Origin: Caldifarciminota bacterium
Lineage (GTDB): Bacteria > Hydrothermota > Hydrothermia > LBFQ01 > DSFT01
NCBI GenBank assembly: GCA_025060695.1
Contig: JANXBH010000004.1
Coordinates: 1-18,635, forward strand
Length of the DNA stretch: 18,635 bases
Reading direction: 5' to 3'
How positions within the stretch are numbered: position 1 is the first letter of the stretch; every line of letters starts with the position of its first letter. Positions 131 through 18,635 of the stretch are shown piece after piece. The notes beneath the pieces are model-generated. The model was given only the letters and a program-made list of their open reading frames with translations, ran no database searches and was not told where the DNA came from. The position numbers and the translations under genes were made by a program.

Positions 131-135
131 CCTTT

Positions 136-495: not shown

Positions 496-501
496 AATAA
501 A

Positions 502-2811: not shown

Positions 2812-2814
2812 ATC

Positions 2815-3279
2815 TTACCTCCTTTTATATTCTACCCTTACATAAAGAAGTTTTTTATTAAATTCCGAGATAGGCATATTCAAAACTATTAAATTTCCTT
2901 TTTGTTTTATTTCATAATTCGTTAAGGACGTAATCTCCTCAAAAAATGCACTATCTAAATTCATACCCTCATATTTGACATTTGTTGAAAGTAAGATTCT
3001 TCCTGATGAATCCGCAACAAGAATTAAATTTAAATTCCTGTCATTTCTTACAAGTTCATTAAAATAACTTCTTAGGTTATCAGGAAAAGCTTCTGATAGC
3101 ATTTTATTTCTTGATAGAAGACCAATTAAATAACCTATACTATAAACCATTTCCTGCCTTTCAATTTCAATACTCTGAATGGACTTTTTCTTTTCCGCTT
3201 CAAACCTATAGAACATATACCACAAAAAACCAATATTTAATAAAATCAAAAATATTAAAAAAAGAAGAAATTTTCTCAC
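2815..3279 (-). CDS. Single-pass membrane protein with a small sensor-like (Cache/PAS-like) domain
   Basis: This protein of 154 residues starts with GTG, and its GTGA overlaps the nuoB stop, indicating translational coupling; GGGGAG lies just upstream. Residues 4-22 form a hydrophobic membrane helix after MRK. A charged helical stretch (about 26-60) follows, then a mixed alpha/beta domain containing [15 protein letters not shown] and later [11 protein letters not shown]. The pattern 'hydrophobic-x-D-x-x-G-x-I-L-x-S-T' followed by later beta strands resembles extracytoplasmic Cache or PAS-like sensor domains. No kinase, HAMP, methyl-accepting or cyclase region follows: the gene ends about 35 residues after the domain core. 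It is either a stand-alone sensor or an accessory protein. The family assignment is tentative; topology and coupling to nuoB are seen directly. Confidence 0.6.
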
Positions 3280-3779
3280 AATACAACTCCCCTTTCTCTC
3301 TCTATTTTCTTCTTTAATTCTAAGATTCCATAAATTAAACTTTCAGGTCTTGGAGGACAACCCGGGACATAAATATCAACAGGAACAATCTGGTCCACAC
3401 CTTGTAAAACTGCATAATTATGATATTTACCACCTGTATTTGCACAAGTTCCCATAGATATTACATATTTTGGCTCTGGCATTTGGTCGTAAATCTTTCT
3501 TAAAACTGGTGCCATCTTCATAGTAACAGTCCCAGCAACTATCATCAAGTCCGCTTGTCTTGGAGATGCTCTAAATACCTCATAACCAAACCTTGCCATG
3601 TCGTATCTTGGCATTGAACTTGCCATCATTTCAATTGCACAACAAGCAAGTCCAAAAGTAGCAGGCCAAATAGAATTGCCTCTACTCCAATTTATTGCCC
3701 ACTCAACAGCATCCTTTACCTTAGTTAAAATAATAGCTCTTAGCAATTGCTTTTCTATTACCTTTTCATCTACTTCCAT
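3276..3779 (-). CDS. nuoB: NADH-quinone oxidoreductase subunit B (complex I, N2 cluster)
   Basis: These 167 residues have full family length. NuoB carries the terminal [4Fe-4S] cluster N2, which passes electrons to quinone at the junction of complex I's arms. The four ligands are visible: the adjacent pair C46-C47 in [12 protein letters not shown]112 in MGTCANTGG and C141 in VPGCPPRPE. Other hallmarks are R58 in [10 protein letters not shown] and the stretch [15 protein letters not shown]. The start at 3779 has GGAGGG six bases upstream and overlaps the nuoA stop by 10 bases. The downstream gene overlaps by 4 bases. NuoC, NuoD and the remaining subunits do not follow, so they must be encoded elsewhere. 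Confidence 0.96.
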
Positions 3780-4120
3780 TCAAACCCTCCCTTTGAAAAC
3801 ATATACACATAGCCTAAAAACAAAATTACTATAAATATAAATGCCTCAACAAAAGCTATCATCTTGAACTTCTCTATATTCAATACCCATGGAAATAAAA
3901 ATATAACCTCAATATCAAATATCAAAAATGCTAAGCCCACAAGATAGTAATGAATATTTATATGCCTTCCCCATTTCCCAGGTTTTACACCAGATTCATA
4001 TGGCTCCAATTTTTCAATAAACTTCCTTTTTGGTCCAAAAAAATAAGATAGTACCAATACACCATATGCAAGCAATATTCCAAATATAAAAAATACTAAT
4101 ACTATCAAGTAATTATCCAT
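3770..4120 (-). CDS. nuoA: NADH-quinone oxidoreductase subunit A (complex I)
   Basis: These 116 residues form three membrane helices, at about 5-28, 60-81 and 86-108. The long loop after helix one carries YESGV, and helix two carries [11 protein letters not shown], the conserved acidic signature of NuoA near the quinone channel. Size and topology are normal for the family. The gene is first in a minus-strand cluster and starts divergently from the LptE-like gene across 46 bases. No Shine-Dalgarno is visible before the ATG at 4118-4120. Instead AACTTTAAACT lies nine bases upstream, like two other leader-poor starts here. Its presence with nuoB argues for a true quinone-reducing complex I rather than a hydrogenase small subunit. 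Confidence 0.95.
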
Positions 4121-4166
4121 AAGTATGAAAGTTTAAAGTTATCTTCAAAACTTTAAAATTTTTAAT
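4121..4166. promoter_or_regulatory. Divergent promoter region between nuoA and the LptE-like gene
   Basis: These 46 bases carry both outward starts. Rightward, AACTT-TAAAAT (4149-4159) is followed by seven bases and ATG. Leftward on the minus strand, AACTT-TAAACT (4140-4130) is followed by nine bases and ATG. The two copies form an imperfect inverted repeat, AAAGTTT near 4128-4134 against AAACTTT near 4148-4154. Neither start has a Shine-Dalgarno sequence. The hexamers look like -10 boxes placed so that transcripts would begin at or next to the start codon. I see no convincing -35 box. The repeat could also be an operator. Confidence 0.45.
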
Positions 4167-4637
4167 ATGAGATATTTTATTATAGTTATACTTTCATCTT
4201 GTATTTATTCACTTACAGGATTTTTTCCGAGAGAATATAAGGATGTAGCAGTATACGAAATTGAAAATAAAACAGATTATCTTCAACTTACAAATATATC
4301 AAAGATAGCATTTGAAGAATATGTTTTAAATGAACCAAGATTAAATCTAAAAGATAGACAAAGTGCAAACATTTTGGTAAAAATCTATATAAGTAATTAC
4401 TCAAGAGAACCCGAGAAATATGACCAAAGTGGAAATATTATTTCATATAAATATAGTGCCTATATAGAAATAGAGTTTTTGAAAAAAGATACTACTAAAG
4501 TTTTAGATAGAAGAGGTTATCAAGGTTTTTTTATTCAAGGTTCACTAATTAGTCCTGATGAAGGCTATAAATTTGCTATAAAAGAAGCAATAAACAAGGC
4601 ATTTTCTGAATATTTTAGTATATTAAGTAAAGATTAA
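4167..4637 (+). CDS. lptE: LptE-like LPS-assembly lipoprotein
   Basis: The protein has 156 residues. The N-terminus MRYFIIVILSSC is a very short lipoprotein signal with the lipidated cysteine at residue 12. The mature part fits the LptE family: YKDVAVYEIENKT (the conserved strand ending in E-N-x-T), a helix, DRQSANILVKIYI (the 'A-D-x-x-L-x-x-x-I' strand), SNYSREPEKYDQSGNI (the family's 'Y-S-R-x-P-x-x-Y-D-x-x-G-N' turn) and SAYIEIEFL. LptE plugs the LptD barrel that inserts lipopolysaccharide into the outer membrane. No lptD is nearby. The gene begins the rightward pair and is followed after one base by the methyltransferase-like gene. The family call is from the motif pattern; the organism's outer-membrane glycolipid is not known. 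Confidence 0.78.
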   Translation: MRYFIIVILSSCIYSLTGFFPREYKDVAVYEIENKTDYLQLTNISKIAFEEYVLNEPRLNLKDRQSANILVKIYISNYSREPEKYDQSGNIISYKYSAYIEIEFLKKDTTKVLDRRGYQGFFIQGSLISPDEGYKFAIKEAINKAFSEYFSILSKD

Positions 4638-4638
4638 T

Positions 4639-5781
4639 ATGTTTAGAAAAGTAAAAAAACTGAACCATGAAGGTAAAGGTATAATTTATACGAAAAGTAA
4701 AATTCTTAAAATAGCACATGTCCTTCCAAACGAAGTTATAGAAATAAATAGCAAACAGGTAATAAAACCATCAAAATATAGAGTAGAACCTTTTTGTGAG
4801 TTTTACTATAACTGCACAGGTTGTAATTTACAAATAGCAAACTACGAATATCAAAAAAAATTGAAAATGAAATTTATAGAGAGAGTTTTAAGAAAAGCAA
4901 ATTTAAATATTCAAATTGAGGATATTGAACCTTCCAAAAGTTCTCATTATCTAAATATTTACGATAGGAATTATTATAATATAAAAGTTGATAGTTGTCC
5001 TTTGTTATACGAGAATATAAATGAAATACTAAATACATTTCCCAAAAGTGCTATAATTAGAGGTTCAGATAGATTAAAGGATTTCATTGTTCTTTTTGGA
5101 AGCCAAAAACTTATAAATAAAAAATACATTACCGAAGTATTCAATACTCGTAGTGATATATCGGGTATAGCTGTAAAGGAAGAAAATCTTATAAAACCAA
5201 TATTAGGAAATACATTCTACAAGGAGAGAATATTAAATAAAACTCTAAAAATTAGTTTTCTTTCGGACTTTGATAAAAATATTGAAATTTTTGAAAGGAA
5301 AATTAAATATTTAAGAAAAATTATGGAAAAATATGAGGTAAAGAGAGGCATATTTTTAAAGTCAGAATACTATCCAGTATTTTTGTATGAGTATCTTGAG
5401 TATATACATGCTATAGAAAGAAATGGTTATAATAGAAAAGATTTAGAGGAAATATTAAAGAATTACGATATTCTAAATTGCACTATTTTATCAAGTAAAG
5501 CTTCAAGCGCAATAAGAGCAAGCAAAGACTTTGATTTGATTTTATTAAATAAACCCTTCTTGAGGTATTTTAAATATATAAAAGAAAACCCATTTAAAAA
5601 CATTGTAGTAATTTTAGATAAAATTAAACAGCTTTATCCTATTTTAAAAATGATGAAGAGCATTAACTATGAGATTTTAGAGATAAAAGCATTTGACAGT
5701 TTTCCACATATTTTTAAATTTGAAATTATTCTATTTTTCAGAAATTCTGTGTCTTCTACATTCTTTAATAAAACTAATTAA
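4639..5781 (+). CDS. TrmA/RumA-family RNA methyltransferase homologue, apparently catalytically degenerate
   Basis: The 380-residue protein follows the layout of RlmD/RumA-type uracil-5 methyltransferases. A TRAM-like domain (about 1-45) is followed by the Fe-S motif C53-x5-C59-x2-C62, then NLQIANYEYQKKLKMK, and the fourth cysteine C120 in DSCPLL. The C-terminal half keeps the Rossmann layout and the closing FDSFPHIFKFEIILFF, equivalent to the family's 'D-x-F-P-x-T-x-x-x-E', with the general-base glutamate at E362. The catalytic pieces are gone. The SAM loop (normally D-x-Y-C-G-x-G-x-F) is IFLKSEYYPVF, D-P-P-R is N304-K-P-F, and the nucleophilic cysteine of S-C-N-P falls at L-D327-K. The frame is intact, so a pseudoenzyme or RNA-binding relative is more likely than a decayed gene. 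Its end overlaps convergent polX by 51 bases. Confidence 0.77.
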   Translation: MFRKVKKLNHEGKGIIYTKSKILKIAHVLPNEVIEINSKQVIKPSKYRVEPFCEFYYNCTGCNLQIANYEYQKKLKMKFIERVLRKANLNIQIEDIEPSKSSHYLNIYDRNYYNIKVDSCPLLYENINEILNTFPKSAIIRGSDRLKDFIVLFGSQKLINKKYITEVFNTRSDISGIAVKEENLIKPILGNTFYKERILNKTLKISFLSDFDKNIEIFERKIKYLRKIMEKYEVKRGIFLKSEYYPVFLYEYLEYIHAIERNGYNRKDLEEILKNYDILNCTILSSKASSAIRASKDFDLILLNKPFLRYFKYIKENPFKNIVVILDKIKQLYPILKMMKSINYEILEIKAFDSFPHIFKFEIILFFRNSVSSTFFNKTN

Positions 5782-7461
5782 TTCTTCATAACTTAATGTA
5801 TTTATTATATCTTCTTTCGTTAATATAGCTTTCTTTGCCATTTTTATGCCAAATCCCATCATACCAAACCCATTTCTGTTATGTGCATCAGTCCCAATAG
5901 AAAATTTTACATTATACCGCTTTGCTTTTAATATGTTAATATCATTTAAATCTAATCTATTGTAGTGTGCGTTAATTTCTAAAATAATTTTTCTTTCACT
6001 TGCTTTTTTAAATATTGCATCTAAGTCTAATTTATATGGCTCTCTATAAGAAACAAGTCTTCCGGTTGGATGTGCTATTATATCTACAAATGGATTTTCC
6101 ATTGCTTTTAAATATCTCTCAGTAATATCCTCATCTTTCCTTACATTGTGAATAGAAGCAAGGACTATATCTAACTGCTCTAAAATTTCATCAGGATAAT
6201 CTAAAGAGCCATCACTTAATATTTCTACCTCTGCACCTAATAGAAGTTTTACTTTTGAGTTTTCATTGAATTTTTTAATTTCTTTATTTCTTCTAATTAA
6301 ATCTTCTACTTCCATACCACCTGCAACTTTCAAACTTTTTGAATGGTCAGTAATTGCAATATACTCATAATTAAGCTTTAGAGCTTCCGCTTCAATTTCC
6401 CAAAAGTCCATTATTCCATCCGAATATCTGCTATGAACTTGCAAATCTCCCTTTATATCAGTAATTTCTACAAGTTTTGGAATTAGATATTTTTTTGCTA
6501 ATTCTATTTCATTCCTTCCCTCCCTAATCTCAGGAGGTATATATTGAATTTCCAAGATTTTATATACTTCTTCTTCACTTCTTCCACCTATGTATATATT
6601 ATCCCTAAATATTCCATATTCGTTTAATTTATATCCTTTCTCTGCCGCAAATTCCCTTAATAAAATATTATGCTCCTTTGAACCAGTAAAATACATAAGT
6701 GCAGCACCCCAACTCCTTTCTTCCACTACTCTTATATCTACTTGAATAAGCCTAGTATTTGAAAGCTCATATGAAAAAGATATTTTTGTATCACCCTTAG
6801 AGAATATATCTTTAATTTTTGGATGTTTTAGAATATCTTCACTAATATTCTTTTCTGAACATATTAAAATATCAATATCTCCAATAGTTTCCTTAAACCT
6901 TCTAAATGAACCTACTAATTCCACTTTTTGAACTCCACTAATTGAACTTATGTAATTTTTTAAATTTATTACATCCTGATATATTTCTCCAATTGGATAT
7001 CTTTCAGATAACTTTTGATACAACTCTATACCCTTTTTTATATTTTCTAATTTTTTTATACCAAATCCTTTTATTCTTAGCAAATCTCCACTTTCTACTA
7101 TCTTTTTCAGTTTTTCAATATTATCTACACCTAACTCTTCATATAAAGTTTTTGCGGTTTTTGGTCCTATATATGGAATTTTCATAATATCAAATATTCC
7201 CCTTGGTATTTTACTTAATAATTCCTCATGCTTTTTTATTTTTCCAGTTTTAATAAATTCTAATATCTTTTCTTTTAAATCTTCACCAATACCAAATATT
7301 TTTTCACCTTTCTGAATATATACACTAATGTCTTCCTCTAAGCTTTCCAATATATAAGAAGCTGTTCTATATGCTCTTACTTTAAATGGGTTATCTCCCA
7401 AAAATTCAAGAGCATCTGCTATTTCTTCAAATATTTTTGCTATTAAATGATTACTGTTCAT
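5731..7461 (-). CDS. polX: DNA polymerase X family protein with PHP exonuclease domain
   Basis: The 576-residue length is normal for bacterial PolX, a gap-filling base-excision-repair polymerase with 3'-5' exonuclease activity. The N-terminal 8-kDa/HhH region (about 1-150) includes IPYIGPKTA and IKGFGIKKLENI. The nucleotidyltransferase core has GSFRR, GDIDILI (D195, D197) and QVDIRV (D242), completing the catalytic aspartate triad. The PHP domain (about 337-570) shows GDLQVHSRYSDG, AITDHSK, GAEVEI, ASIHN, IIAHPTGR, NAHYNRLDL and GTDAHN, a full set of metal ligands. Both activities look intact. The gene is 14 bases downstream of spoVR and has ACTT-TAAGAT five bases before its ATG, with no Shine-Dalgarno, so it may have its own promoter. 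Its last 51 bases overlap the opposing methyltransferase-like gene. Confidence 0.94.
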   Translation of the reverse strand: MNSNHLIAKIFEEIADALEFLGDNPFKVRAYRTASYILESLEEDISVYIQKGEKIFGIGEDLKEKILEFIKTGKIKKHEELLSKIPRGIFDIMKIPYIGPKTAKTLYEELGVDNIEKLKKIVESGDLLRIKGFGIKKLENIKKGIELYQKLSERYPIGEIYQDVINLKNYISSISGVQKVELVGSFRRFKETIGDIDILICSEKNISEDILKHPKIKDIFSKGDTKISFSYELSNTRLIQVDIRVVEERSWGAALMYFTGSKEHNILLREFAAEKGYKLNEYGIFRDNIYIGGRSEEEVYKILEIQYIPPEIREGRNEIELAKKYLIPKLVEITDIKGDLQVHSRYSDGIMDFWEIEAEALKLNYEYIAITDHSKSLKVAGGMEVEDLIRRNKEIKKFNENSKVKLLLGAEVEILSDGSLDYPDEILEQLDIVLASIHNVRKDEDITERYLKAMENPFVDIIAHPTGRLVSYREPYKLDLDAIFKKASERKIILEINAHYNRLDLNDINILKAKRYNVKFSIGTDAHNRNGFGMMGFGIKMAKKAILTKEDIINTLSYEELISFIKECRRHRISEK

Positions 7462-7478
7462 ACTTTATCTTAAAGTCA
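7462..7478 (-). promoter_or_regulatory. Possible internal -10 element before polX
   Basis: On the minus strand the spoVR stop TGA (7478-7476) runs into ACTT-TAAGAT-AAAGT-ATG. TAAGAT (7472-7467) stands five bases before the polX start. ACTTTA-AGA-TAAAGT is also a perfect 6-bp AT inverted repeat. No Shine-Dalgarno is present. The element matches those before nuoA, the LptE-like gene and the YeaH-like gene. Confidence 0.35.
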
Positions 7479-8936
7479 AGCTTTATCTACGACCCATTCT
7501 GTATAATGTTCCCTATCACTGAAACCAAGTCTAAACTTTTTAATTCCAAAGAGATTTCTTATTCTTTGATTAATAAACTTTTCTGTCTCTTTTACTCCAT
7601 AGCCTGGATTACCAGAGATATACAAGTCGTGGATGTATAAGTATATATTTTCTCCTATTTTCATTGGTTCATTCTCCCTTTCAAATTCAATTTCATACTC
7701 AGGTCTAGAAAATAAGTCAATTGTAAAAAAGTCCTTGTTTATACCACCTTTTGGGACATAACCTTTATATATCCTTTGAAGCCAAAAGATATTTGCAAAC
7801 TTTATTATAGCTTCTATATTTTCATTGTCTTTAATATGGTCATAAAATTTAAATGGCATACTTTCTTCTAAAAGTGTAATAAACATATCAAAATCAAACA
7901 TTTCAAATACACTATAGTCAAATAAGTTTTGAGAGTATAAAAATATATTTTCTCCCTTCCTTGATTTGGTTAAGAAAAACAAATATCCAAGAATATACGG
8001 ATCAGAAAGTGTTCTATGTACTAAGTTCATAAGGTCCGCAAGATAAATTAAATTTCCATCTTCAAACTCCTCAAGCTGCTCCTTAGTTATAAATGGAAAT
8101 CTTGGAATAATATTTGAAGATATAAACTCTTTGACATTTATGTACTTAACTGCTTCAATATATAGCGCCTTTTCCCAGAAAGTTGCCCACCCTTCATGAA
8201 TATATTTTGTAAGCGTTATAGGATAAGAATACATTGCTCTATGCCTAAAGATTGAAATAATATCTTTAATAGTTTGTGCAATCCAAGGTATTGACATTAA
8301 TGCATATAAAATATCACCTTCATCTTCACTTGGATATTCTGGCTCTTCTATAATAAACGTTTTCTTTTCAGGGTCAAACCTTTCCTTTGGCCTATATGCT
8401 ATAGAAACTGGTTGAATTTCGTCAACTCTAAATGAAGAAGATATCTCAGCTAATATTTCTGAAACATCCTCTATACTCTCTATAAAATCTATACCATATT
8501 TTTCCTCATAGTCTTTTAGTATTTTTCTATACTTAGCAACAGATGAAGTATATGATAGTATAGTATTGTAAAATTTTTGCTTTAGTGTGTGTCTTTTAAA
8601 TAAGTCCGCATGTGCATATGCATGCAAAACAACAGCAACTTGATAAGCAATAGGCATATCACTTCTAATAAATCCAATTGCATAGTCCCCCATGTCGTAT
8701 ATAACTTCAAGAACTCCAAATACATAATTTTTTGTCCAATCTCTTTCTAATAGGCTCTGTTGCCAGTAAGCATAGCCATCTTCCCAAAATTCGATATCTG
8801 ATGGGACTCTTCCCATAATCGTATCTGAAATCTCCTCATTATCTAATATTATCCACTCAACAGGTAATGGATCTAAATTATGTGCCCTTACAATCGCCTC
8901 TAAGTCCTCTATTATTTTTTTATCTATTTTGGGCAT
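7476..8936 (-). CDS. spoVR: SpoVR family protein
   Basis: From the ATG at 8936 the product has 486 residues, normal for SpoVR. Family landmarks in order: VRAHNLDPLPVEW near the N-terminus, GYAYWQQSL, VVLHAYAHADLFKRH (family 'H-x-x-G-H-x-D-F-F-K-x-N', about residues 103-116) and LTKYIHEGWATFWEK (family 'K-x-x-N-E-G-W-A-x-x-W-H', about 242-256). In B. subtilis SpoVR affects spore cortex formation; in E. coli it is YcgB, linked to YeaG and YeaH in starvation responses. The biochemical activity is unknown. Two usual residues differ: Asn to His before EGWA, and Gly to Ala in the first histidine motif. A TTG at 8960 would add eight residues, but ATG with AAAGGGG 10-11 bases upstream is preferred. 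It overlaps the YeaH-like gene by 17 bases. Confidence 0.86.
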   Translation of the reverse strand: MPKIDKKIIEDLEAIVRAHNLDPLPVEWIILDNEEISDTIMGRVPSDIEFWEDGYAYWQQSLLERDWTKNYVFGVLEVIYDMGDYAIGFIRSDMPIAYQVAVVLHAYAHADLFKRHTLKQKFYNTILSYTSSVAKYRKILKDYEEKYGIDFIESIEDVSEILAEISSSFRVDEIQPVSIAYRPKERFDPEKKTFIIEEPEYPSEDEGDILYALMSIPWIAQTIKDIISIFRHRAMYSYPITLTKYIHEGWATFWEKALYIEAVKYINVKEFISSNIIPRFPFITKEQLEEFEDGNLIYLADLMNLVHRTLSDPYILGYLFFLTKSRKGENIFLYSQNLFDYSVFEMFDFDMFITLLEESMPFKFYDHIKDNENIEAIIKFANIFWLQRIYKGYVPKGGINKDFFTIDLFSRPEYEIEFERENEPMKIGENIYLYIHDLYISGNPGYGVKETEKFINQRIRNLFGIKKFRLGFSDREHYTEWVVDKA

Positions 8937-9969
8937 AGCTAAATTTACCCCTTTTACCAAGGTGTTTAAATATCCAATTTAAAACACTTATAGTATCTAC
9001 ATTATTTGAAACTGCTATCTCTCTACCCATAAAAAGTATAGAACTATTACTTGGAATATATGAGAACGTGTTAAATACGCCCTCATTATCGTACACTATA
9101 ATTCCATAGAAATGAAAGACATTATCTCTAAATAACTGTTTTTCAAAGATTTCTAAATCATTAGAAAAAACTGAAAAGTCTCCTGCATAAAATAAATATC
9201 TACTGTAGTTTTTGTATTTACTTGCAAGATTTCTTGTTTTTATTGAAAAGTCATATAATGAGGTTCCACCTCCTCCTTGTATTTTTGCAAATTCTCTAAT
9301 TGATAAAGATTCTTCCGTATCTAAAATATATAGTGGATTATCTGATTTTGGTATTTTCAATGGTCCAAATATTTTAGCTGAAACTTCATGAGAAATTCCA
9401 TAAAAATCAGTCATTTCAAAATTCGTTCCAAAAAATTGTATAAGACCTATTACAAGTGATTTTGCTATTACTCTCTCAATATCACTTATTGAACCTGAAA
9501 CATCAATACCAAGCACTACTAAACACTTCTTACTTAAACTTTCCTTTATGGAAAACCTATTAAATATCAAGTCTTCATCTGAAAATGGTTCGTTAAAAAG
9601 AGCTTCAGGTTCTAAATTTCCTTCTATGGCTAATCTTTTCATCTTTTGCTTCAGTGTCCTTTCTATATCTAACTGACTCGTTCTACCTATTTTTGACTTT
9701 CCTTCTTTTTTTACTTCAAACTCATAACTACTTTCTTCTATAATTATAGGAATTTGAAAATCAGAAAGAAAGTACTTTACAATCTCATCTCTACCAAATG
9801 CACCTTCATCAACATTACCAGGTCCACTTCCTGCTGAAATACCTAAGTCAAACTCCCAAACGTACATTGGTCTTGGCAGCATTAATCTTGGAATTTTCGT
9901 AGTTTTATCTAATGAAACATTTGGCTTTTCTTTTAAAAGTCTTCTTAAATATTTCCACTTAGTATTCAT
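8920..9969 (-). CDS. yeaH: YeaH/DUF444-family VWA-domain protein
   Basis: The 349 residues begin with a charged arm and a Gly-rich turn, GISAGSGPGNVDEGAFGR, leading to EIVKYFLSDFQIPI, as in the DUF444 family (E. coli YeaH). A von Willebrand A-type core at about 148-290 has a metal-ion-dependent adhesion site: D156-x-S158-x-S160 in GIDVSGSIS, T236 in GGGGTS and D264 in YAGDFS. The GGGGTS motif and VWA core match DUF444 closely. Members are typically co-encoded with PrkA/YeaG kinase and SpoVR. Here spoVR follows with an overlap but no kinase gene lies upstream. The protein is cytoplasmic (no signal). It is slightly shorter than E. coli YeaH (about 430). Its biochemical role is unknown; starvation-related signalling is inferred from the family. 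Confidence 0.84.
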   Translation of the reverse strand: MNTKWKYLRRLLKEKPNVSLDKTTKIPRLMLPRPMYVWEFDLGISAGSGPGNVDEGAFGRDEIVKYFLSDFQIPIIIEESSYEFEVKKEGKSKIGRTSQLDIERTLKQKMKRLAIEGNLEPEALFNEPFSDEDLIFNRFSIKESLSKKCLVVLGIDVSGSISDIERVIAKSLVIGLIQFFGTNFEMTDFYGISHEVSAKIFGPLKIPKSDNPLYILDTEESLSIREFAKIQGGGGTSLYDFSIKTRNLASKYKNYSRYLFYAGDFSVFSNDLEIFEKQLFRDNVFHFYGIIVYDNEGVFNTFSYIPSNSSILFMGREIAVSNNVDTISVLNWIFKHLGKRGKFSYAQNR

Positions 9970-10009
9970 AATTAAAATTTTAAAGTTAAAACACTCTGAA
10001 TTTCAACTA
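9970..10009 (-). promoter_or_regulatory. Promoter of the yeaH-spoVR(-polX) transcript
   Basis: This 40-base gap is the only break in the minus-strand run between the surface operon and yeaH. On the minus strand, TTGAAA (10006-10001) is followed by 18 bases and TAAAAT (9982-9977), then seven bases and the yeaH ATG. The last part, AACTT-TAAAAT-N7-ATG, is nearly base-for-base the sequence before the LptE-like gene. No Shine-Dalgarno is present, so the transcript could be leaderless. No hairpin terminator for the upstream operon is visible. Confidence 0.5.
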
Positions 10010-11314
10010 TTATTCATTTAAAATTTGAATAAAGAAGTTCTCATTGTTAGTATTAGTATTAAATTTATGAAGAGGAAATGTTAGTATGTAAAACTTATTA
10101 CTCTTCCATGCAAGAGTAGGAACTGGTAAATTTGTATCACAAGTTGAACCATTCCACCTCCAGTTGAAATTATCACAATTTGGATCGGAAAGTTCATATA
10201 TTTTAGTTGAAGTGTTTTTTATTAAAACACCATCAAGCATAGTAATAACTGGTGAGTTTGATTTTAGTGGAGATGGATAATTATCTGAAATTAAACTCAT
10301 TCTACTCAAGTATACCTTATTTAAATAATATACACTATCAACGCCCGCATAGTTCTTTAAAAAAGATAAATATCCCCCATATATTGTATCACGCATAGCG
10401 TCTATAAAATGACCTGAAATAATTACTAACTTTTTATTGCTATTTAAATAGTTTTGAAATGCGACATAAGACTTTCTAATATTGCTCTTATTTTCTCCAG
10501 AAAACCAAATAATAGTATTAAAACCAAGCTCATTTACAATGGCATTTACATCAAATACAGAATATGGATATTTTCTGTCTGCATTCCAATAAGTATACAA
10601 ATATCCATTAATATTTAGCAAGTTTCTATAAAAACTTCCATCATAACTAATATCGTCATCCACTACAAGAATATCTCCCATTTTCTCTATTACATAAAAT
10701 CCATAACTAATTGAATCAGATATTCCACCATTTTCATCAAATGCTTTAAAGTACACCCTTCTATTTCCACTTTGAAAGTTCTTTAGAGTAATTCTTTCAT
10801 ATGGAGTATCTATAACATGCCAGTTCTGTTCATAGTCAAACCTATACATTAAACCCTTAATAGTACTATTTCCATCCTCATCGTAGTATTTAAAATAAAA
10901 TGTTGCAACAGGTAAAATAGTATCAGGAGGTAAAGTACCATTAACAAAACTTATAACTGGTGGTGCATTTTTTACGAGTAAATTTATACACTTTGGTATA
11001 CTAATAGCGTTTAAATTGTCAATAGCCCATACGCAAAATAGATGATTTTCTGGAAATTTCCCAGCTTCAAAGTAAATAGTATCGTAATTTTTCGTTGTAA
11101 AAACCTTATTACTTGTATCATCCTTTGCTATGTAATATCCGATAATTTCTCCGTCAGGGTCATTCCCATACCAGTAAAATACTTGCCTCCCAGTAATAGT
11201 ATCATTTATACTCTCTACAAAAAGATAAACCCTCGGTATAATATTTTCTATTGGGTTATCTTTCGGCTTATTACAAGAAATAAAAATTAATGATAAAAAA
11301 ATTAACCTTTTCAT
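10010..11314 (-). CDS. Surface lipoprotein with fibronectin-like and glutaminase-like (ThuA/GATase-fold) regions
   Basis: This protein of 434 residues starts MKRLIFLSLIFISC, a short lipoprotein signal with C14 lipidated. Residues about 25-210 hold two Ig/fibronectin-like beta domains, with phrases such as FYWYGNDPDGEIIGYYI and YFKYYDEDGNSTIKGLMYRF. From about 212, a Rossmann-like region starts with MGDILVVDDDISYDGSFYRN and includes NTIIWFSGE, an inspection of a 'line' (KKLVIISGHFID) and SFLKNYAGVDSVY. This resembles ThuA/type 1 glutamine amidotransferase-fold domains seen in exported proteins of FCB and WOR-3 bacteria; I see no Cys-His-Glu triad, so it is probably a binding fold. The ATG overlaps the preceding stop (ATGA). 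It is the last gene of the surface operon. Function unknown. Confidence 0.74.
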   Translation of the reverse strand: MKRLIFLSLIFISCNKPKDNPIENIIPRVYLFVESINDTITGRQVFYWYGNDPDGEIIGYYIAKDDTSNKVFTTKNYDTIYFEAGKFPENHLFCVWAIDNLNAISIPKCINLLVKNAPPVISFVNGTLPPDTILPVATFYFKYYDEDGNSTIKGLMYRFDYEQNWHVIDTPYERITLKNFQSGNRRVYFKAFDENGGISDSISYGFYVIEKMGDILVVDDDISYDGSFYRNLLNINGYLYTYWNADRKYPYSVFDVNAIVNELGFNTIIWFSGENKSNIRKSYVAFQNYLNSNKKLVIISGHFIDAMRDTIYGGYLSFLKNYAGVDSVYYLNKVYLSRMSLISDNYPSPLKSNSPVITMLDGVLIKNTSTKIYELSDPNCDNFNWRWNGSTCDTNLPVPTLAWKSNKFYILTFPLHKFNTNTNNENFFIQILNE

Positions 11315-13041
11315 CTTACTATACCAAGCCTCGTTCTTCTTATTTTTTTACTCTCAAGGTCCTCAACTACTACTATGTATACTCCGGGAGCAACTTGAAA
11401 ACCACTTTTGTTTTTTAAATTCCAAAAGTACTCACCCCTTATTTCATTATAAAATTCATCTGAAAAGACTAAATCTCCTGCAAGATTGTAAATATATATC
11501 TTTCCTCTTTTTGGTAAATTTGAAATATATACGCCATTAAATTTTGAACTAAATTTAAATGGATTTGGATAAACTCTAAGTGGTAAGCTCGTTGATGGTT
11601 TTGAACCTGGAATAACTTCTATTAAGTTTTGACGATATGAACTATATAAAATTGGTATTCCCTGTTGTGGATAGCCTTTATCAAATGAAATTATTGAATA
11701 GTAATATAAATATCCATTTTTTACACCTAAGTCTTCATAATAATAACAAGGTGGACTTAAAGTGCTTGGACAATTATTAGTAATCTTAGGTAATCCCGCA
11801 TCGTATCCTATATTGTTAATTTTATCATACTGTGCAAGTATTAACCAAGTACTATCAAATAATTTAGACTTTCCTCTCAAAACTCTATATCCTTCAAAAT
11901 CCATTTCATTGCTAAATGGGTCAATATAGCTTTCAGGGGAATTATCCCAATATAAACTAACTTTTCTATCATCAGTTATTGCAATGAGTCTTGGTGAAGG
12001 TGGTGGTGCAGGAAGTAAGAAGTCCCTTTCAAAAGCAATTTTCGCCCACCTTGCATTCTTTTTAATATCCTCCTCATCCATTCCTCCAACAACCGCCACA
12101 TAAAATACTATAGTATCATTACTTTCAAGATAGTCTATTGGACCTATGGAAATTATACTTGTTGGGTCAGGATATGGATTATTTAAAAGATAGTTATCAT
12201 CAACATTCGGAAATATCGTATCTTTTGAAATATCTAAGTATTTATTTTTGTCAGGATAAACTTGGTTTGGATTCCAAGGCTTCCAAATAAATGAAACATT
12301 TAAGCTTTCGGGATATATCTTCTTATCGTCTTTTATAATTCCAAGAATTTGAAACCCTGCACTTATTTTCTTTGCAATAGTATCATAACCACTATTTCTT
12401 TCATATACAAGTTTCAAACTATCATTATAAAATAGTCTTTTGTGCTGAAAAAATGGGGTTCTTGCAAAATCACTTCCCCAAAATGTTCTATTTCCTGTTA
12501 CAAGCTCAGAATATATACCCAAATACATTTTTCTTAGGTCTCCTGCAGACTTATTTATAATTTTATACTCAAGAAAAACCACGTCTTCTATATATTCATA
12601 AGTATATAAAAATGCTCTTAAATGAACTTCAACTCCAAGAGGACTATGATTTACTACATTTGAATAGTCATCAAACTTTGCTGTTATTTCCTCGTCTGCC
12701 TTTGCATTAGGATCGTAATATGGAGATGTTAATATTAAAGACCTAATTTTTACACTATCTAACTTTCTAAATTCAAAGCCTTCACCACTAACCGAACTAT
12801 TGGCATATTCATCTACTGCAGAAGTAGATACCAACGTATCACCTTGTGAAGTGATTGCACCTATCCATATACCTGCAATAGTTAAGTGTTCAGTTTTTGA
12901 ATTTATAGGAAATTCTAAAGATGGTAGTCTTATTCCACTTGCAAAATTAGTCCCAAGCACACCAAAAGAACTAACTGTTATAGCTAAATTTCCATATTGT
13001 GTAGCCTTATAGTCTGGTAAATTTAAAAACAAAAAAATCAT
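11311..13041 (-). CDS. Exported protein with fibronectin-like domain and type IX-like C-terminal sorting domain
   Basis: The protein has 576 residues. A short hydrophobic start, MIFLFLNLPDY, serves as a signal. The body begins GNLAITVSSFGVLG and contains LTIAGIWIGAITSQGDTLVS, a pattern I associate with large exported proteins of WOR-3-type bacteria. A Pro-rich hinge (LLPAPPPSP) leads to a fibronectin III-like domain (about 350-480), with KVSLYWDNSPE and FEGYRVLRGK. The last 91 residues (486-576) form a sorting/FlgD-like domain: LRVYPNPF, IYIYNLAGDLV, then APGVYIVVVEDLESKKI and a basic end. The VYPNPF entry and GVYIV strand are the type IX hallmark. It overlaps both neighbours by ATGA. As a likely cargo encoded with a PorV-like barrel, it is probably displayed on the cell surface; its ligand or enzymatic activity is unknown. 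Confidence 0.8.
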   Translation of the reverse strand: MIFLFLNLPDYKATQYGNLAITVSSFGVLGTNFASGIRLPSLEFPINSKTEHLTIAGIWIGAITSQGDTLVSTSAVDEYANSSVSGEGFEFRKLDSVKIRSLILTSPYYDPNAKADEEITAKFDDYSNVVNHSPLGVEVHLRAFLYTYEYIEDVVFLEYKIINKSAGDLRKMYLGIYSELVTGNRTFWGSDFARTPFFQHKRLFYNDSLKLVYERNSGYDTIAKKISAGFQILGIIKDDKKIYPESLNVSFIWKPWNPNQVYPDKNKYLDISKDTIFPNVDDNYLLNNPYPDPTSIISIGPIDYLESNDTIVFYVAVVGGMDEEDIKKNARWAKIAFERDFLLPAPPPSPRLIAITDDRKVSLYWDNSPESYIDPFSNEMDFEGYRVLRGKSKLFDSTWLILAQYDKINNIGYDAGLPKITNNCPSTLSPPCYYYEDLGVKNGYLYYYSIISFDKGYPQQGIPILYSSYRQNLIEVIPGSKPSTSLPLRVYPNPFKFSSKFNGVYISNLPKRGKIYIYNLAGDLVFSDEFYNEIRGEYFWNLKNKSGFQVAPGVYIVVVEDLESKKIRRTRLGIVR

Positions 13042-13913
13042 GGTCTTTCAGGTTTTCTATACTTTTCAATTCTATATTTATATGCAACAAATAAGTCTTT
13101 CCCATCTCTACTTACAGCTATTGAAACAGGAATAATTGTAGTATCAGGACTTCTTGAAACCATGATAAAATCACCATATTTATTGAATTTCTGGAATCTC
13201 CTGTTGTTCAGCTCTAACACAAAAATTCCATAGTTATCATCCAAAGATACGTCTATAGGTAAATTAAATTTAGAAATAGAATCTGAGGGATTAGAACTAA
13301 ACCCACCAAGATGAACAAAACTATTTTTACTTAGTGTAATACCCTCTACCCAATTATTTCCACTTGATGCTACAAAAACTATAGAATCCTTACAGTATAT
13401 ACCCATAGGCTTTCTAACATTTAGTATTCCATTCCCCTCATATGCCAATGTGTCCAATGGATATATACTATCTCTATGATATAGAACAAGTCTTGATTTT
13501 TCATAAAATGATAGAACAAATCTTAAACTATCAAATGCACAGATTGAGTATGCTGGAATATTAGATATTTTTTTTGAAATTCTTAAATCTCCATCGTAGT
13601 TATAAATACTTAAGATAGTATCTGAAACCATGTAAATACTCCTGTCGCTTGATATATAGAAGGTTCTTGCAATTGAATGTATTTTAAATCCTTCATAATT
13701 TAAGTTTGTATATAGTCTTGTAAGTGAATCTTTAAACAAAACATATAGTAGTCCATCAGGTCCTACCTGTATTCTTAATATACTATCGTTAAATTCTTTA
13801 TAATCTATTCTAATGTACGTGCTATCTGATGGTCTTGGTTGTGGACTTTCAGATGGTAGTTCAAACTTCAATCCTGAACAGGAAAATAAAAATAAAACAA
13901 AAAATCTTTTCAT
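13038..13913 (-). CDS. Lipoprotein with NHL-type beta-propeller
   Basis: This 291-residue protein begins MKRFFVLFLFSC, a 12-residue lipoprotein signal with C12 lipidated, then a Pro/Ser-rich linker (PSESPQPRPSDS). The rest is repeated four-stranded blades with the pattern 'x-P-x-G-(I/L)-x-x-x-x-x-x-x-(I/V)-x-V': for example VGPDGLLYVLF, KPMGIYCKDSIVFVAS, LPIDVSLDDNYGIFVLEL followed by NNRRFQKFNKYGDFI, and PVSIAVSRDGKDLFVAYK. That is NHL/6-bladed propeller character, a usual protein- or ligand-binding scaffold, probably facing the periplasm or cell surface. Start ATG overlaps the PorV-like stop, and its stop overlaps the next start. Ligand unknown. Confidence 0.77.
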   Translation of the reverse strand: MKRFFVLFLFSCSGLKFELPSESPQPRPSDSTYIRIDYKEFNDSILRIQVGPDGLLYVLFKDSLTRLYTNLNYEGFKIHSIARTFYISSDRSIYMVSDTILSIYNYDGDLRISKKISNIPAYSICAFDSLRFVLSFYEKSRLVLYHRDSIYPLDTLAYEGNGILNVRKPMGIYCKDSIVFVASSGNNWVEGITLSKNSFVHLGGFSSNPSDSISKFNLPIDVSLDDNYGIFVLELNNRRFQKFNKYGDFIMVSRSPDTTIIPVSIAVSRDGKDLFVAYKYRIEKYRKPERP

Positions 13914-14752
13914 CTTATATACCCCACATTTATGCTATTTAGAACACCAAACTGACCTTTGCTTAAAAATGCATAGTCCATATAAACTTTACTTAACTTT
14001 ATTCCAAGACCAAAACTATAGTTTCCAACCGAATTTATACCCGTTCTGATACTAACTATCGAAATACTTCTCTCAAGCGCAAACGAAAATATCTCAAATC
14101 TATCAGAACCCTTCTCCAATTGCGATACTAAGTATATATTCTTAAATATATCACCACTCACACTGAGCCTAAATACTATAGGTAGAGAGTATCCTTTTAT
14201 ATCTGGACCTAAATTATAAATTCCAACCCCTATTCTAATGTCCCTATAACCAATAAGATAAATAGAACCAATATCTAAAGCAAAACCATTATAGCTACGG
14301 TTTGCAATATTTTCTTGAATAAACTTAAATGAAAAACCTATCCCAAATCTATCATATAGTTTTGTTCCTCCTGTAAGACCCAAAACTATATTATTATAAT
14401 TCCAATAGTAACCAGTCCCAAATGGATGGTCCTCGTCAGTTTCCTGTAAATATGAGCTATACATAGAATTTATATATCCACCAAAGCCAAAATTTTTTCT
14501 TTTTGTATTAAATGCAAAAAATCCTTGGTAAATTTCAGATGGATAAGTTTTTATATAAAATGAAAGCTGAGATTTATCAATAAATCCCAAAAGACCGCCA
14601 TTATAGTAGCTACTATATGCATCATTACTTATACTATTTCCACTAAATAGAACATCGTATCTTGAACCAACTGTATTTTTCAAAAAAGAAGCTATAGTTG
14701 TGCCAACTTTTTGGTCTCCTATACTTTCAAAAAAAGCTATAATAACTACCAT
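13910..14752 (-). CDS. PorV/PorQ-like outer-membrane beta-barrel protein
   Basis: The 280 residues have PorV-type character. The N-terminus VGTTIASFLKNTVGSRYDVL is close to the family opening 'G-T-S/T-A-x-x-F-L-K-x-x-x-G-x-R'. SISNDAYSSYYNGGLLG takes the place of 'A-x-x-D-x-x-A-x-x-x-N-P-A-G-L'. Alternating aromatic strands follow: FAFNTKRKNFGFGGYI, IGFSFKFIQENI, IRIGVGIYNLG, SIRTGINSVGNYSFGLGIKL and a closing aromatic strand, giving a barrel of roughly 12-14 strands. In Porphyromonas, PorV binds sorting domains of type IX cargo and shuttles them to the attachment complex. Here the gene lies between a TonB receptor and cargo genes. The signal peptide is very short (MVVIIAFF) or absent. It overlaps the receptor stop by 7 bases. 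It may be PorQ-like or a distant paralogue. Confidence 0.78.
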   Translation of the reverse strand: MVVIIAFFESIGDQKVGTTIASFLKNTVGSRYDVLFSGNSISNDAYSSYYNGGLLGFIDKSQLSFYIKTYPSEIYQGFFAFNTKRKNFGFGGYINSMYSSYLQETDEDHPFGTGYYWNYNNIVLGLTGGTKLYDRFGIGFSFKFIQENIANRSYNGFALDIGSIYLIGYRDIRIGVGIYNLGPDIKGYSLPIVFRLSVSGDIFKNIYLVSQLEKGSDRFEIFSFALERSISIVSIRTGINSVGNYSFGLGIKLSKVYMDYAFLSKGQFGVLNSINVGYIR

Positions 14753-17259
14753 TCTACATTTATACCTCCGTTTAATCTAAATGGATCCACGTACATATCA
14801 GGTCTTTTGTAAAAATATATATTACTTCTTGGTGGAATTTTATCACCATCTTTATAAGCTCTTCCTGTAATAGGATTTATTATATAAACATTCTTATAGT
14901 CAAGGATATTTTCAATCTTTAAATATGCATCAGCAAATTTATTAATTTTCTTTGTAAGCTTTAGACTTAAGTTTAACCAAGGTGGTCCTATTTTAGAGTA
15001 TGGTTCGCCTCTTTTTCCTGTGCTGTCTACAGGTGTATATCTTCTTCCACTCTGAAATTTTAGCGTAATTGTAGTAAATATATCGTACTTAAACTTTCTT
15101 CCATATTTCATATATAGTTTAACTGGCCTATCCCACGGCATAAATATTTCAGATATAGTTGTATCATAATCACCTAAGTATAAATCCTCACTTGTTGCAC
15201 CCCTTCCTCTTACTTGCGAAATAGTAATATCAAAGCTGAAGAAATTATTATTTGAAAATTTCTTCTCAATTTGAAACTCTATACCTAAACTTCTTGAGTA
15301 GTCAGAATTTAAGTATATCCAAAAGTCAGGATTTGGTGGTAGATTATCTATTCTTATAGCAGTTGGATAGTTAAATATGTCCCTATAGAATGCACTTAGC
15401 TTGGCTATTATGTCTTTTGCTAATATTCTTTCAAAACCCATTTCATATGCAACCGTAATGGTTGGTTTTAAATTCGGATTCCCTACAAGCTCATAATTAG
15501 AACTTGCTCTTACTCCAAGCTTTGTATATACATACTTTAAGTCAGGAACTTTAGAGAACCTTCCGTATGAAAAGTAAAACTTGTCATTTTCACTAATAGG
15601 ATATGAAATGCTTATTCTTGGACTTAGATTAAATCTTAAATCACCTTCCTTTATAAATTTTTCATACTGATTCCTTACAATAGGTGGAAGATAGTAGTTT
15701 TTATCTTCTAAAATACTTCTTACCCTTTCTAATGCATACTCACCTATTTTCCAATAGTCAACCCTAAAACCATATACAGCAATTAAACCTCCGAACTTAG
15801 TGGTATTTTGAATATAAAAACCACCCTTATTTGAATATGTCTTAAATATATCATAATTAAGACCAATACCATTTGAGTAGTTATACCATGGATAGTGTAT
15901 GTCTATATAAGTAAGCAAGTAATTTTCATGGATAAATCCTAATTTTAACTTATTGTACGCGCTTAAGTATCTTGTAAAATCAACTTTGTATATCCAACCA
16001 TCTGCATTGTTATGATGCCAATATGGACTATCACCACTATCGTAGAAAAATCCATCACCACTTGGAAGTGGATAGTTATCCTCTATGGGTTCATATTCAT
16101 TAAACATCTTATTCCTTGACCTTACTGTAAGACCATTAAAAACTCTCGCAATTCTTAGTTCAAATAAGGAAACTGGACTAATTAAATAATCAATTGAAAA
16201 ATATGAATTTACAAGTTCTTTTCTAAATATTGGATAGCCCTCTAAATAAAACATATATCTAATTGGAAAACCATATGCAAATCTATAGTCGCTTGAAGAA
16301 TAGAAAAAACCTTGACTTGTTTCAATTGCTCTATTGTAAAAATATCTAAATTTTAAACTTTTTATACCATAACCCAACTTTAGCATAAGACTATAATTAT
16401 TTTGTTCATACGGACCTTTAAAATGGTTTGGTAAGTGAGTATTATCAAAATCTCCTGAGATATCTAAAGAATAGGTAAGATTTCTATAGAGTGGACCCTT
16501 AATGTTTAAATCAATATTGTTATATTCATAAAATCCCCACTTTAAACCACTTGTGTCTTTATAAATTCTACCAAAACTGCCACCTTCGTACCTTAAATTA
16601 CCCTGAATTTTACTATATCCCTCATTTGTCTTTATATTTATTACTCCACCGCTTGCTTCACCGTACTCGGGGTTAAAACCACCTACTAAAGCTTCTATCT
16701 CTTCAAAGGCATTGTATGGTATAAAGGTTGTAGATATTGAACCAGTAATAGGATTTCTTACAGGTATACCATCTACAAGCACTAAAACATCACTTACTCT
16801 ACTTCCTCTTACATGTATCTCATTTCCATAACCTGTGATGGATGAGAGGTTTTGTAAAACATTTTTTATTGAAACTTCAGGAATATATTTTAAATCAGTC
16901 CTCCTTATGGTAGTTTGTGTAAATCCAACGTCCTTCTTTATAGGCTCTGGTTCCGCCTTGACTACTACCTCTTCTAACACATATCCCTGTGGTTCTAAGT
17001 AAAAGTCCACATTTAAATTACTATTAATAAATATTTCTTTTTGAGACTTCTTATAGCCCAAAATTTCAGCATTTAATTTATATTTTCCAGTAGGACCACT
17101 AAACAAAATTTCATAATAACCTTTCTCGTCAGTATATGTCCCATATGGAGTTCCTTCTAAATACACTGCTACCGCTTCTAAGGGTTTTGCAACCTTTCCG
17201 TCATAAACATAACCTTGAACTTTATATTGTAGGATAAATACAAAAATCATAATTTTCAT
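14746..17259 (-). CDS. TonB-dependent outer-membrane receptor with N-terminal regulatory domain
   Basis: This 837-residue protein opens with a short hydrophobic signal (MKIMIFVFILQ). A carboxypeptidase-regulatory-like beta-sandwich follows (about 12-95, with VQGYVYDGKVAKPLEAVAV and GTYTDEKGYYEI), then LEEVVVKAEPEP and a plug domain (about 108-212) with IRRTDLKYIPEVSIKNVLQN, HVRGSRVSDVLVLVDGIPVR and GFNPEYGEASGGVINIKT. A 22-strand-type barrel fills the rest, with a C-terminal aromatic end (INVEW). The order is typical of SusC/RagA-like receptors of the FCB group; no SusD partner is seen nearby. The substrate is not recognisable. The ATG at 17257-17259 is preferred because it precedes the signal; ATG at 17250 is the alternative. 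The start directly follows a perfect hairpin, without Shine-Dalgarno. Confidence 0.92.
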   Translation of the reverse strand: MKIMIFVFILQYKVQGYVYDGKVAKPLEAVAVYLEGTPYGTYTDEKGYYEILFSGPTGKYKLNAEILGYKKSQKEIFINSNLNVDFYLEPQGYVLEEVVVKAEPEPIKKDVGFTQTTIRRTDLKYIPEVSIKNVLQNLSSITGYGNEIHVRGSRVSDVLVLVDGIPVRNPITGSISTTFIPYNAFEEIEALVGGFNPEYGEASGGVINIKTNEGYSKIQGNLRYEGGSFGRIYKDTSGLKWGFYEYNNIDLNIKGPLYRNLTYSLDISGDFDNTHLPNHFKGPYEQNNYSLMLKLGYGIKSLKFRYFYNRAIETSQGFFYSSSDYRFAYGFPIRYMFYLEGYPIFRKELVNSYFSIDYLISPVSLFELRIARVFNGLTVRSRNKMFNEYEPIEDNYPLPSGDGFFYDSGDSPYWHHNNADGWIYKVDFTRYLSAYNKLKLGFIHENYLLTYIDIHYPWYNYSNGIGLNYDIFKTYSNKGGFYIQNTTKFGGLIAVYGFRVDYWKIGEYALERVRSILEDKNYYLPPIVRNQYEKFIKEGDLRFNLSPRISISYPISENDKFYFSYGRFSKVPDLKYVYTKLGVRASSNYELVGNPNLKPTITVAYEMGFERILAKDIIAKLSAFYRDIFNYPTAIRIDNLPPNPDFWIYLNSDYSRSLGIEFQIEKKFSNNNFFSFDITISQVRGRGATSEDLYLGDYDTTISEIFMPWDRPVKLYMKYGRKFKYDIFTTITLKFQSGRRYTPVDSTGKRGEPYSKIGPPWLNLSLKLTKKINKFADAYLKIENILDYKNVYIINPITGRAYKDGDKIPPRSNIYFYKRPDMYVDPFRLNGGINVEW

Positions 17260-17260
17260 G

Positions 17261-17278
17261 GTCCGCCAAAAGGCGGAC
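17261..17278 (-). other. Perfect G+C hairpin between a stop codon and the receptor start
   Basis: On the minus strand GTCCGCC, loop TTTT and GGCGGAC pair perfectly (7 bp). The first base of the stem is the G of the upstream TAG stop, and one base separates the stem from the receptor ATG. U17280 and A17259 can close the structure across a mismatch. No T-run follows. It is therefore unlike a normal intrinsic terminator and replaces a Shine-Dalgarno region. Confidence 0.6.
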
Positions 17279-18635
17279 TAATTTATAATAATTTTATAAC
17301 TCTTTCCATCTAACTTCATTAGATATATACCTTTCTTAAGATTTAAAACAACCTGCGAATTCTTAGAATTTACTACTTTACTTAGAGCTTTCCTTCCATC
17401 TATACTATAGATATCAAGACCATAGTCCTTGTCATTTGGAAGTATAAAACTTATTGTATTGCCCTTTATGGTAAACTTTATAGCTTCTTTCTTTTCTACA
17501 ATACTTGTCGTAATAAACTCAATATCAGTTTGAAATCTCGGATAAATTCTAGAGTTGTATATTCCTGCAGATGGTCTCCATCTTCTAAAATTACCCGTTA
17601 TATTTAGCATATCTCCCACTTGTGGAACGTACGGACCAAGGTTTATTTTTTGAACCTGAACTCTCGGTGCACTTGGATCATTGTAGTTTGAATAGTCAGC
17701 AACTAAAAAGAAGGCAGTTGTTCCAGTATCTACTACAACTGCTGAGTCCAATTTAATTAACATACTTTCGTAGTATTCGGATGTATCGTTGCTATATGCA
17801 AGCTGTCTGACTTTTACCTTCGCAGGTAAATAATTATTATTATTTGATACTATTTTATAGTATTTTATCTGAGCTATTTCAGTTAATCCCTGGAATTCCT
17901 CTATTAAACCCACAACTATAACACTATCTCCCTCAGTTGCATTCCACCAAGGACTATTACCATTCCATATAGTAATACCTGAAAATGGTGCATTTGAGCT
18001 TTGCATGAACCACCAATAACTTGGAAACCTATTTCCTGCACCTGTAATAACACCTGTCATAGTCATAAGAAATGCACTATCCATATATGCACTAAGGAAC
18101 ATAGACTGAGTATCAGGATTTGCTGAACTTTTAAATGTTGATTGAACCTTACTTATTTGCATAAATCCACCAAAGAATTTAGTAGAATCGTGAAGAGAAC
18201 TACCATTATTTGCCACAAGTTTATATAGCTGTCCATCAACTTGGTTAGAAGTTGATATAATAACACCTTTTGTGTTCTCAGGATCAGCTGCTACACTATT
18301 TATGGTAAGTACAGGAGTAAATGTATAAGTTGAGGGATTTAGTACATTACTTATTTGACTTATATCTCTTGTGTATATCAATCTCACGGTATTCCTATCA
18401 AGTGCATAAGCTATGTTTATTGATATAGTTTGAATCTCTACATCATTATCATTTCTTGGAACTATGACGTATTGACCACCTCTTGTATATACTACACCTT
18501 GTATATTTATTAACTGACCAACTTGGGGATTGTAGCTAAACCCACTATGACCATATCTAAAGTGAAAATATCCTGTTCCATCATATGCTTGAGCAACAGT
18601 CCAACCTGCTAAACTTATGCCTACTTGAACTACTA
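17278..18635 (-). CDS. Exported OB-fold-like repeat protein with type IX-like sorting tail (5' partial)
   Basis: The frame is open from the window edge to TAG at 17278-17280, about 451 residues, so the true start lies beyond 18635; GTG at 18385-18387 is internal. Three related beta-barrel segments contain 'V-G-x-x-(I/V)-x-(I/V)-x-G-x-(V/I)' strands: VGQLINIQGVVYTRG, EGDSVIVVGLIEEFQGLTE and VGDMLNITGNFRRW. That OB-fold pattern accompanies exported nucleases and lamin-tail-like proteins, but I see no nuclease motif. The segment KVKVRQLAYSNDTSEYYESM resembles the linker between such folds. The C-terminus is sorting-like: IKFTIKGNTISF, LDIYSIDGRKALS, LNLKKGIYLMKLDGKSYKII and an end in IN. It is first in the visible operon and precedes the TonB receptor. 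Function unknown; predicted cargo of a type IX-like route. Confidence 0.75.
   Translation of the reverse strand, partial: VVQVGISLAGWTVAQAYDGTGYFHFRYGHSGFSYNPQVGQLINIQGVVYTRGGQYVIVPRNDNDVEIQTISINIAYALDRNTVRLIYTRDISQISNVLNPSTYTFTPVLTINSVAADPENTKGVIISTSNQVDGQLYKLVANNGSSLHDSTKFFGGFMQISKVQSTFKSSANPDTQSMFLSAYMDSAFLMTMTGVITGAGNRFPSYWWFMQSSNAPFSGITIWNGNSPWWNATEGDSVIVVGLIEEFQGLTEIAQIKYYKIVSNNNNYLPAKVKVRQLAYSNDTSEYYESMLIKLDSAVVVDTGTTAFFLVADYSNYNDPSAPRVQVQKINLGPYVPQVGDMLNITGNFRRWRPSAGIYNSRIYPRFQTDIEFITTSIVEKKEAIKFTIKGNTISFILPNDKDYGLDIYSIDGRKALSKVVNSKNSQVVLNLKKGIYLMKLDGKSYKIIIN

Follow-up and report, generated by a model that had tools for sequence, protein, structure and literature searches.

Does a row of six neighbouring genes that joins two candidate secreted proteins to a TonB-dependent receptor, a PorV-like barrel and two lipoproteins encode a single surface machine, and is its barrel dedicated to the proteins encoded beside it? 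The stretch of DNA analysed here (the window) covers bases 1 to 18,635 of a 100-kb contig, within a 1.50-Mb genome that is 95% complete, and the named relatives that share its gene order are MAGs of the candidate division WOR-3 (Hydrothermota, Stahlbacteria).

Gene layout, receptor, lipoproteins and cargo

As originally predicted, the six genes are consecutive on the minus strand, and open reading frames for all of them (A to F) were found at 10010-18633. Gene A, encoding the first putative cargo, is represented by its 3' part (17278..18635; reading frame 17278-18633) and is open at the window edge; on the same contig it reaches about 19200, and the full protein has 640 aa. After a gap of 18 bases it is followed by B (14746..17259), encoding a TonB-dependent receptor of 837 aa, C (13910..14752), a PorV/PorQ-family outer-membrane barrel of 280 aa, D (13038..13913), a beta-propeller (NHL-type) lipoprotein of 291 aa, E (11311..13041), a second putative cargo of 576 aa, and F (10010..11314), a lipoprotein of 434 aa with an Ig/FN3-like N-terminal part. 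The genes overlap by seven bases at B/C (14746..14752) and by four bases at C/D (13910..13913), D/E (13038..13041, ATGA) and E/F (11311..11314), all on the minus strand. The overlaps announced in the prediction are present; their extent was understated, since not the last four but five genes (B to F) are locked together, by four overlaps of 7, 4, 4 and 4 bases.

The receptor B carries a CarboxypepD_reg-like domain (PF13715) and a plug domain (PF07715, 46 bits), both above cut-off, with a TonB-box-like EEVVVKA ahead of the plug (recognised by eye and with a regular expression), and the barrel domain model PF00593 gave no match to this protein. Its score against the SusC/RagA model TIGR04056 is 49.5 bits for a cut-off of 368, and no match to SusD was obtained within the module. 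NHL repeats were detected in 13 of 16 relatives of D, whose lipobox-type N-terminal Cys12 is conserved in relatives, and the lipobox-type N-terminal Cys14 of F is invariant in 17 relatives; a strict lipobox pattern misses some relatives of both proteins, yet their cysteine is still conserved in the alignments. F has no match above cut-off in Pfam and only weak matches of Ig/PKD type (titin Ig) in the PDB. Both lipoproteins presumably face the cell surface, but neither D nor F shows a clear acidic export signal like those known from Bacteroidota surface lipoproteins, and they could therefore face the periplasm.

The C-terminal tails of A (about 17281-17463, minus strand) and E (residues 490-576; 11314..11574, minus strand) score 25.5 and 27.4 bits, respectively, against the type A model TIGR04183, above its curated cut-off of 23, which bears out the prediction of two proteins with type IX-like sorting tails; against Pfam PF18962, neither tail reaches the cut-off of 27. 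On the strength of these tails, A and E are predicted to depend on the type IX system (T9SS) for their export. The tail of E is nearest to the CTD of PorZ (NF052228, 42.9 bits), PorZ (5m11) is its sole match in a profile search of the PDB, and the PorZ CTD model is matched by 23 of the 28 E relatives, as against seven for TIGR04183 (at 1e-3). Of the five CTD proteins from this genome that were scanned with NCBIfam, only the two encoded beside a PorV-like barrel match the PorZ model over the tail. The model of E (pLDDT 83.5, with the protein also supported by alignments) consists of an N-terminal beta-supersandwich (residues 1-342; 12016..13041, minus strand), an FN3-like part and the CTD; it has no catalytic domain and lacks the double propeller of PorZ. 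In GH94/GH116/GH15-type enzymes it is the non-catalytic domain that this N-terminal domain resembles, with Z values reaching 19.8 across some 250 residues. As for A, Por_Secre_tail is found in all 11 of its relatives and OB-fold/DUF5689 in some. A Neomarinimicrobiota homologue of A (L099:12051-15947), of about 1,298 aa, has extra N-terminal parts, and one aligned relative of A matches planctomycete-type cytochrome c domains.

Conservation of the block within and beyond WOR-3

If the six products work together, their gene order should be kept in related genomes. The order B-C-D-E-F indeed recurs in at least nine WOR-3 genomes from families f1, f4, f7, f8 and f10, and partial stretches of it, ended by contig ends, occur in further WOR-3 genomes. 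Gene A precedes B in the window's genome and directly follows F in families f4 and f8, and the 7-base B/C overlap is identical in relatives from f1, f4, f8 and f11. Protein identity is about 44-57% within the close family and about 27-47% to other families of the phylum. The set is also found in Eisenbacteria, where one contig (L093) shows the order E-B-C-D-E-F-A, and in Neomarinimicrobiota, with the order E-A-F-B-C-D on two contigs (L094 and L099). None of the 19 flanking genes tested beside the module in relatives was kept, bar one partial stray match, so that what holds the block together is not the recent shared ancestry of the region. The neighbours of the block in f10 (genes for a mechanosensitive channel, a methyltransferase, an S49 peptidase and a restriction enzyme) were considered as a clue to its substrate and set aside, since they are specific to f10 and do not belong to the module.

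The block is split in two families: B-C-D and E-F-A lie on separate contigs in f11, which retains all parts, and C-D and E-F lie on different contigs in f6, where these parts are likewise retained. In f17, the overlaps are mostly lost. Joint translation of the barrel with one cargo, as the prediction had it, thus fits the window and fails as a general rule. In a set of 147 WOR-3 genomes, D, E and F are strongly matched in 30, 28 and 28, respectively (union 30), and the sets of genomes with E and with F are wholly contained in the set with D; the three discordant genomes (G045, G015 and G034) resemble losses at contig ends. All three genes are absent from 117 of the 147 genomes. Close relatives that lack one of them lack all, as seen in G001 (from the same genus), in G027 and G035 and in families f2 and f9, and some f3 genomes have weak D-like matches only. 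Kinship among the 147 genomes would inflate any P value for this co-occurrence; nevertheless, the recurrence of order and content in several families and three phyla, together with the near-perfect co-occurrence of D, E and F, points to more than chance. Along with the separate lineage of the barrel described below, these results uphold the idea of a self-contained, conserved module.

A separate lineage of PorV-family barrels

C scores 68.4 bits against the PorV/PorQ family model NF033709, below its curated cut-off of 90; the model is matched by all 21 aligned C orthologues, and orthologues in other WOR-3 genomes lie above the cut-off (e.g. 161.6 bits in G013 and 135.8 in G029). Against the PorQ equivalog C reaches 39.6 bits, for a cut-off of 220, and among the listed matches of the window's C there is none to the PorV equivalog model and none to the PorP/SprF model, the protein matching models of the PorV/PorQ group instead. 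AlphaFold models C (pLDDT 86) as a barrel of 14 strands with a hatch at the N terminus, and its best solved match in Foldseek is the Flavobacterium johnsoniae PorV in the SprA translocon (6h3i_F, 1.9e-10). Comparison with PorV bound to a cargo CTD (8gl6_F) gave a Z of 32.6 with an rmsd of 4.6 over 267 residues; FadL channels come behind PorV (Z about 30), and BamG lies well below it (Z 24-25, as against 32). A profile of the module barrels has PorV as its sole match in the PDB (5e-21). In a maximum-likelihood tree, a branch with support 96/94 sets the 27 module barrels, which come from the three phyla, apart as a single clade from the canonical-like PorV of the same genomes and from the other PorV-family proteins of the window's genome.

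The best-conserved stretches of the module barrels are the hatch and loop 2. In C, loop 2 contains the motif TDEDHPFGTG (14411..14440, minus strand), which matches the PorV loop after F115, the loop that contacts the cargo CTD, and the pattern TDExHPxG[TL]G, which occurs in 23 of the 27 module barrels, is absent from all 29 other PorV-family proteins compared. A conserved lysine of the CTD contacts the main chain of PorV N87 and F115 (PMC10994853), and these two residues align to loop 1 and to the start of loop 2 of C, respectively. Judging from the model and the alignment to PorV, loop 2 of C is probably extracellular. As the CTD-contact positions of PorV are present in C, the cargo-binding groove expected of such a carrier is not missing, and loop 2 can be taken as a signature of the module.

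The window contains no core PorK/L/M/N/SprA gene. In the genome as a whole, SprA (283 bits, cut-off 200) and a PorU-like sortase (396 bits, cut-off 420) were found, which supplies the core that the prediction presupposed, together with about 53 sorting tails, three occurrences of TonB_C and another, more PorV-like barrel. With so many tails and this second barrel in the genome, a general PorV could carry E. SprA and C25 peptidases occur throughout the WOR-3 genomes G000-G058, with 31-92 sorting tails per genome where these were counted. Searches run without a positive control gave no match to GldM in nine genomes and no credible match to GldL in 15, and the motor of the T9SS may be missing or very diverged in WOR-3. 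SprB repeats (PF13573) gave no match in the genome, in a search without a control. The more PorV-like barrel (L139:2404-4299, on G000:C7; 631 aa) is fused to roughly 300 extra residues, as is its counterpart at L112 in G002 (593 aa); other PorV proteins are without such a fusion.

A diverged relative of part of the module was found in the same genome (L051; G000:C5, about 12107-20960), where genes for ExbB, ExbD, ExbD, TonB, a receptor, a CTD protein and a PorV-like barrel stand in a row. The CTD protein is related to E, and the block of receptor, CTD protein and PorV-like barrel has diverged from the module. Such triples recur across the phylum (L056-L059), and ExbD-ExbD-TonB also adjoins L058. 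An ExbBD-TonB set as a constant neighbour of the paralogous block was considered and rejected, being located beside L051 and L058 and not seen at L056, L057 and L059.

A possible dock beside a TonB-dependent receptor

Since the same six-gene set is kept together in three phyla, it probably encodes one surface machine. We propose, with middling confidence, that in this conserved module C is a dedicated dock for E, beside the D-capped receptor B, and that the products form one capture-and-uptake station. E, and perhaps A, would be released by the SprA translocon, and its type A CTD would be received by the loops of C. The barrel would then stay in place as a surface dock, with no handing-on of its cargo for cleavage, as PorQ does for PorZ; the CTD of PorZ is retained by PorQ, and cognate PorV-like barrels have been suggested to protect such tails (PMC10202324). 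E and A would come to lie beside B, where the propeller lipoprotein D would cap this receptor or be its partner, as in BtuB-BtuG, where the receptor is capped by a propeller lipoprotein (PMC10404256). F and A would be further accessory parts, and the whole would constitute a station for capture and uptake around the TonB-dependent receptor. The score of C below the curated PorV-family cut-off and the splitting of the module in some relatives both count against the dock.

The prediction had presented a dedicated PorV-like barrel for a cargo as a departure from what is known; this cannot be maintained, as PorQ-PorZ, PorV-PorU and SprF-SprB are precedents (PMC10202324, PMC12618676, PMC9143113). 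In PorQ-PorZ and PorV-PorU, from the attachment complex of Porphyromonas gingivalis, a PorV/PorQ-family barrel is likewise combined with a type A CTD protein that keeps its tail, and the tail of E is nearest to that of PorZ; E differs in having a beta-supersandwich and not the two propellers, and C differs in that its gene accompanies those of a TonB-dependent receptor and of two lipoproteins, in bacteria other than Bacteroidota. Dedicated carriers are also known for type B cargo (PMC12618676, PMC9143113): the SprF/PorP carriers, such as that of SprB in Flavobacterium johnsoniae, are encoded next to their cargo as C is, but they involve type B CTDs and PorP/SprF barrels, whereas the module has type A-like tails and a PorV/PorQ-family barrel. 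With the SprA-PorV translocon (6h3i, 8gl6) the module shares the PorV fold and equivalent loops of C, and SprA is present in the genome; however, PorV serves many cargoes, while C, whose chain is shorter, falls in a clade of its own that is marked by a near-private loop motif. On the receptor side, BtuB-BtuG of Bacteroides is similar in that a TonB-dependent receptor is encoded with a propeller lipoprotein, but there is no sequence evidence for D as a BtuG and BtuBG is devoid of a T9SS part. Nor was a cobalamin riboswitch, or any other riboswitch or RNA family, found near the module at gathering score in six sources. SusCD systems and utilisomes also combine a receptor with co-encoded surface lipoproteins, but the module has no SusD relative and B is far under the SusC/RagA cut-off.

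In light of PorQ-PorZ, PorV-PorU, SprF-SprB and BtuB-BtuG, the module is best described as a new variation on known parts and not as a new category. The literature searched, which is partial in its coverage and thus no proof of novelty, contains neither the combined six-gene module, conserved in three phyla and with a barrel clade to itself, nor a receptor and PorV module, nor a T9SS in WOR-3 or Eisenbacteria, and the WOR-3 genome papers examined make no mention of T9SS or TonB. If the dock reading holds, the concept of cognate PorV-like docks, so far applied to PorZ and type B cargo, would come to cover an entire receptor station, and WOR-3, Eisenbacteria and Neomarinimicrobiota would all have T9SS parts combined with TonB-dependent receptors. 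Two questions could then also be put to the test: by what means certain CTDs avoid being cleaved, and what powers the T9SS outside the Bacteroidota.

Other readings have to be weighed against this one. PorV acts as a shuttle in F. johnsoniae (PMC10994853), co-encoded pairs of carrier and cargo are known for type B cargo (PMC12618676) and the genome has a PorU-like sortase; C might therefore only ferry E and A from SprA to PorU for cleavage, with the receptor co-regulated and outside any complex. We regard this as rather unlikely, because it explains neither the PorZ-like tail of E nor the cohesion of B-C-D where E-F-A lies elsewhere (f11) or is reordered (Neomarinimicrobiota). The fold similarity of C to FadL-family channels (Z about 30) would instead fit an ordinary nutrient-uptake operon, in which a substrate is taken up by B and the lipoproteins, C acts as a FadL-like channel through which this or a related hydrophobic substrate passes, and the general T9SS exports E and A; the presence of TonB genes and the existence of pairs of TonB-dependent receptor and propeller such as BtuBG (PMC10404256) are in keeping with this. 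Yet the profile search retrieves PorV and not FadL, and the module barrels belong within the PorV/PorQ family, near barrels that adjoin other CTD proteins, which makes such an operon a doubtful explanation.

It is more improbable that the barrel, the propeller lipoprotein and the receptor form a surface or outer-membrane biogenesis station that helps to assemble glycans or surface lipoproteins, similar to BamG-BamI in the Bacteroidota BAM or to PorQ-PorZ in its delivery of lipopolysaccharide. BamG is a FadL-family barrel partnered with a propeller lipoprotein (PMC12578637), and the PorZ-like tail of E would also fit; however, the absence of the module from most WOR-3 genomes (117 of 147) is unlike an essential assembly machine, and the fold of C is closer to PorV than to BamG. 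Very little credence can be given to the suggestion that the dedicated PorV-like barrel is loaded with cargo, and releases it, in steps that are driven or gated by TonB energy transmitted through the receptor encoded with it. Were it true, the module would be a TonB-powered type IX surface display, in phyla without detected GldL or GldM, and the L051 layout is the one to be expected of such a machine.

A few observations concern the surroundings of the module and its leader peptides. Directly adjoining it are a SpoVR-like and a DUF444/YhbH-like gene (7476-9969), which overlap by 41 bases; PrkA, the usual partner of SpoVR-like and DUF444 (YhbH-like) genes, is absent from the window. Further away, the segment 502-2811 encodes a protein of 769 aa that combines a barrel-like part at its N terminus with several CarboxypepD_reg domains and one OmpA domain and is distantly similar to PorE-type and CHU_0125 OmpA-like proteins. 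The module proteins of family f1 (L032 and L033 included) have unusually short leaders, for example MIFLFLNLPDYKA in E and MVVIIAFFESIG in C, with the lipid-bearing cysteine at position 12 in D and 14 in F, where the leaders of f4 relatives run to about 18-26 residues. The leaders of the OmpA-like protein and of the PorU-like protein look similarly short, and the L051 proteins of the same genome have leaders of normal length.
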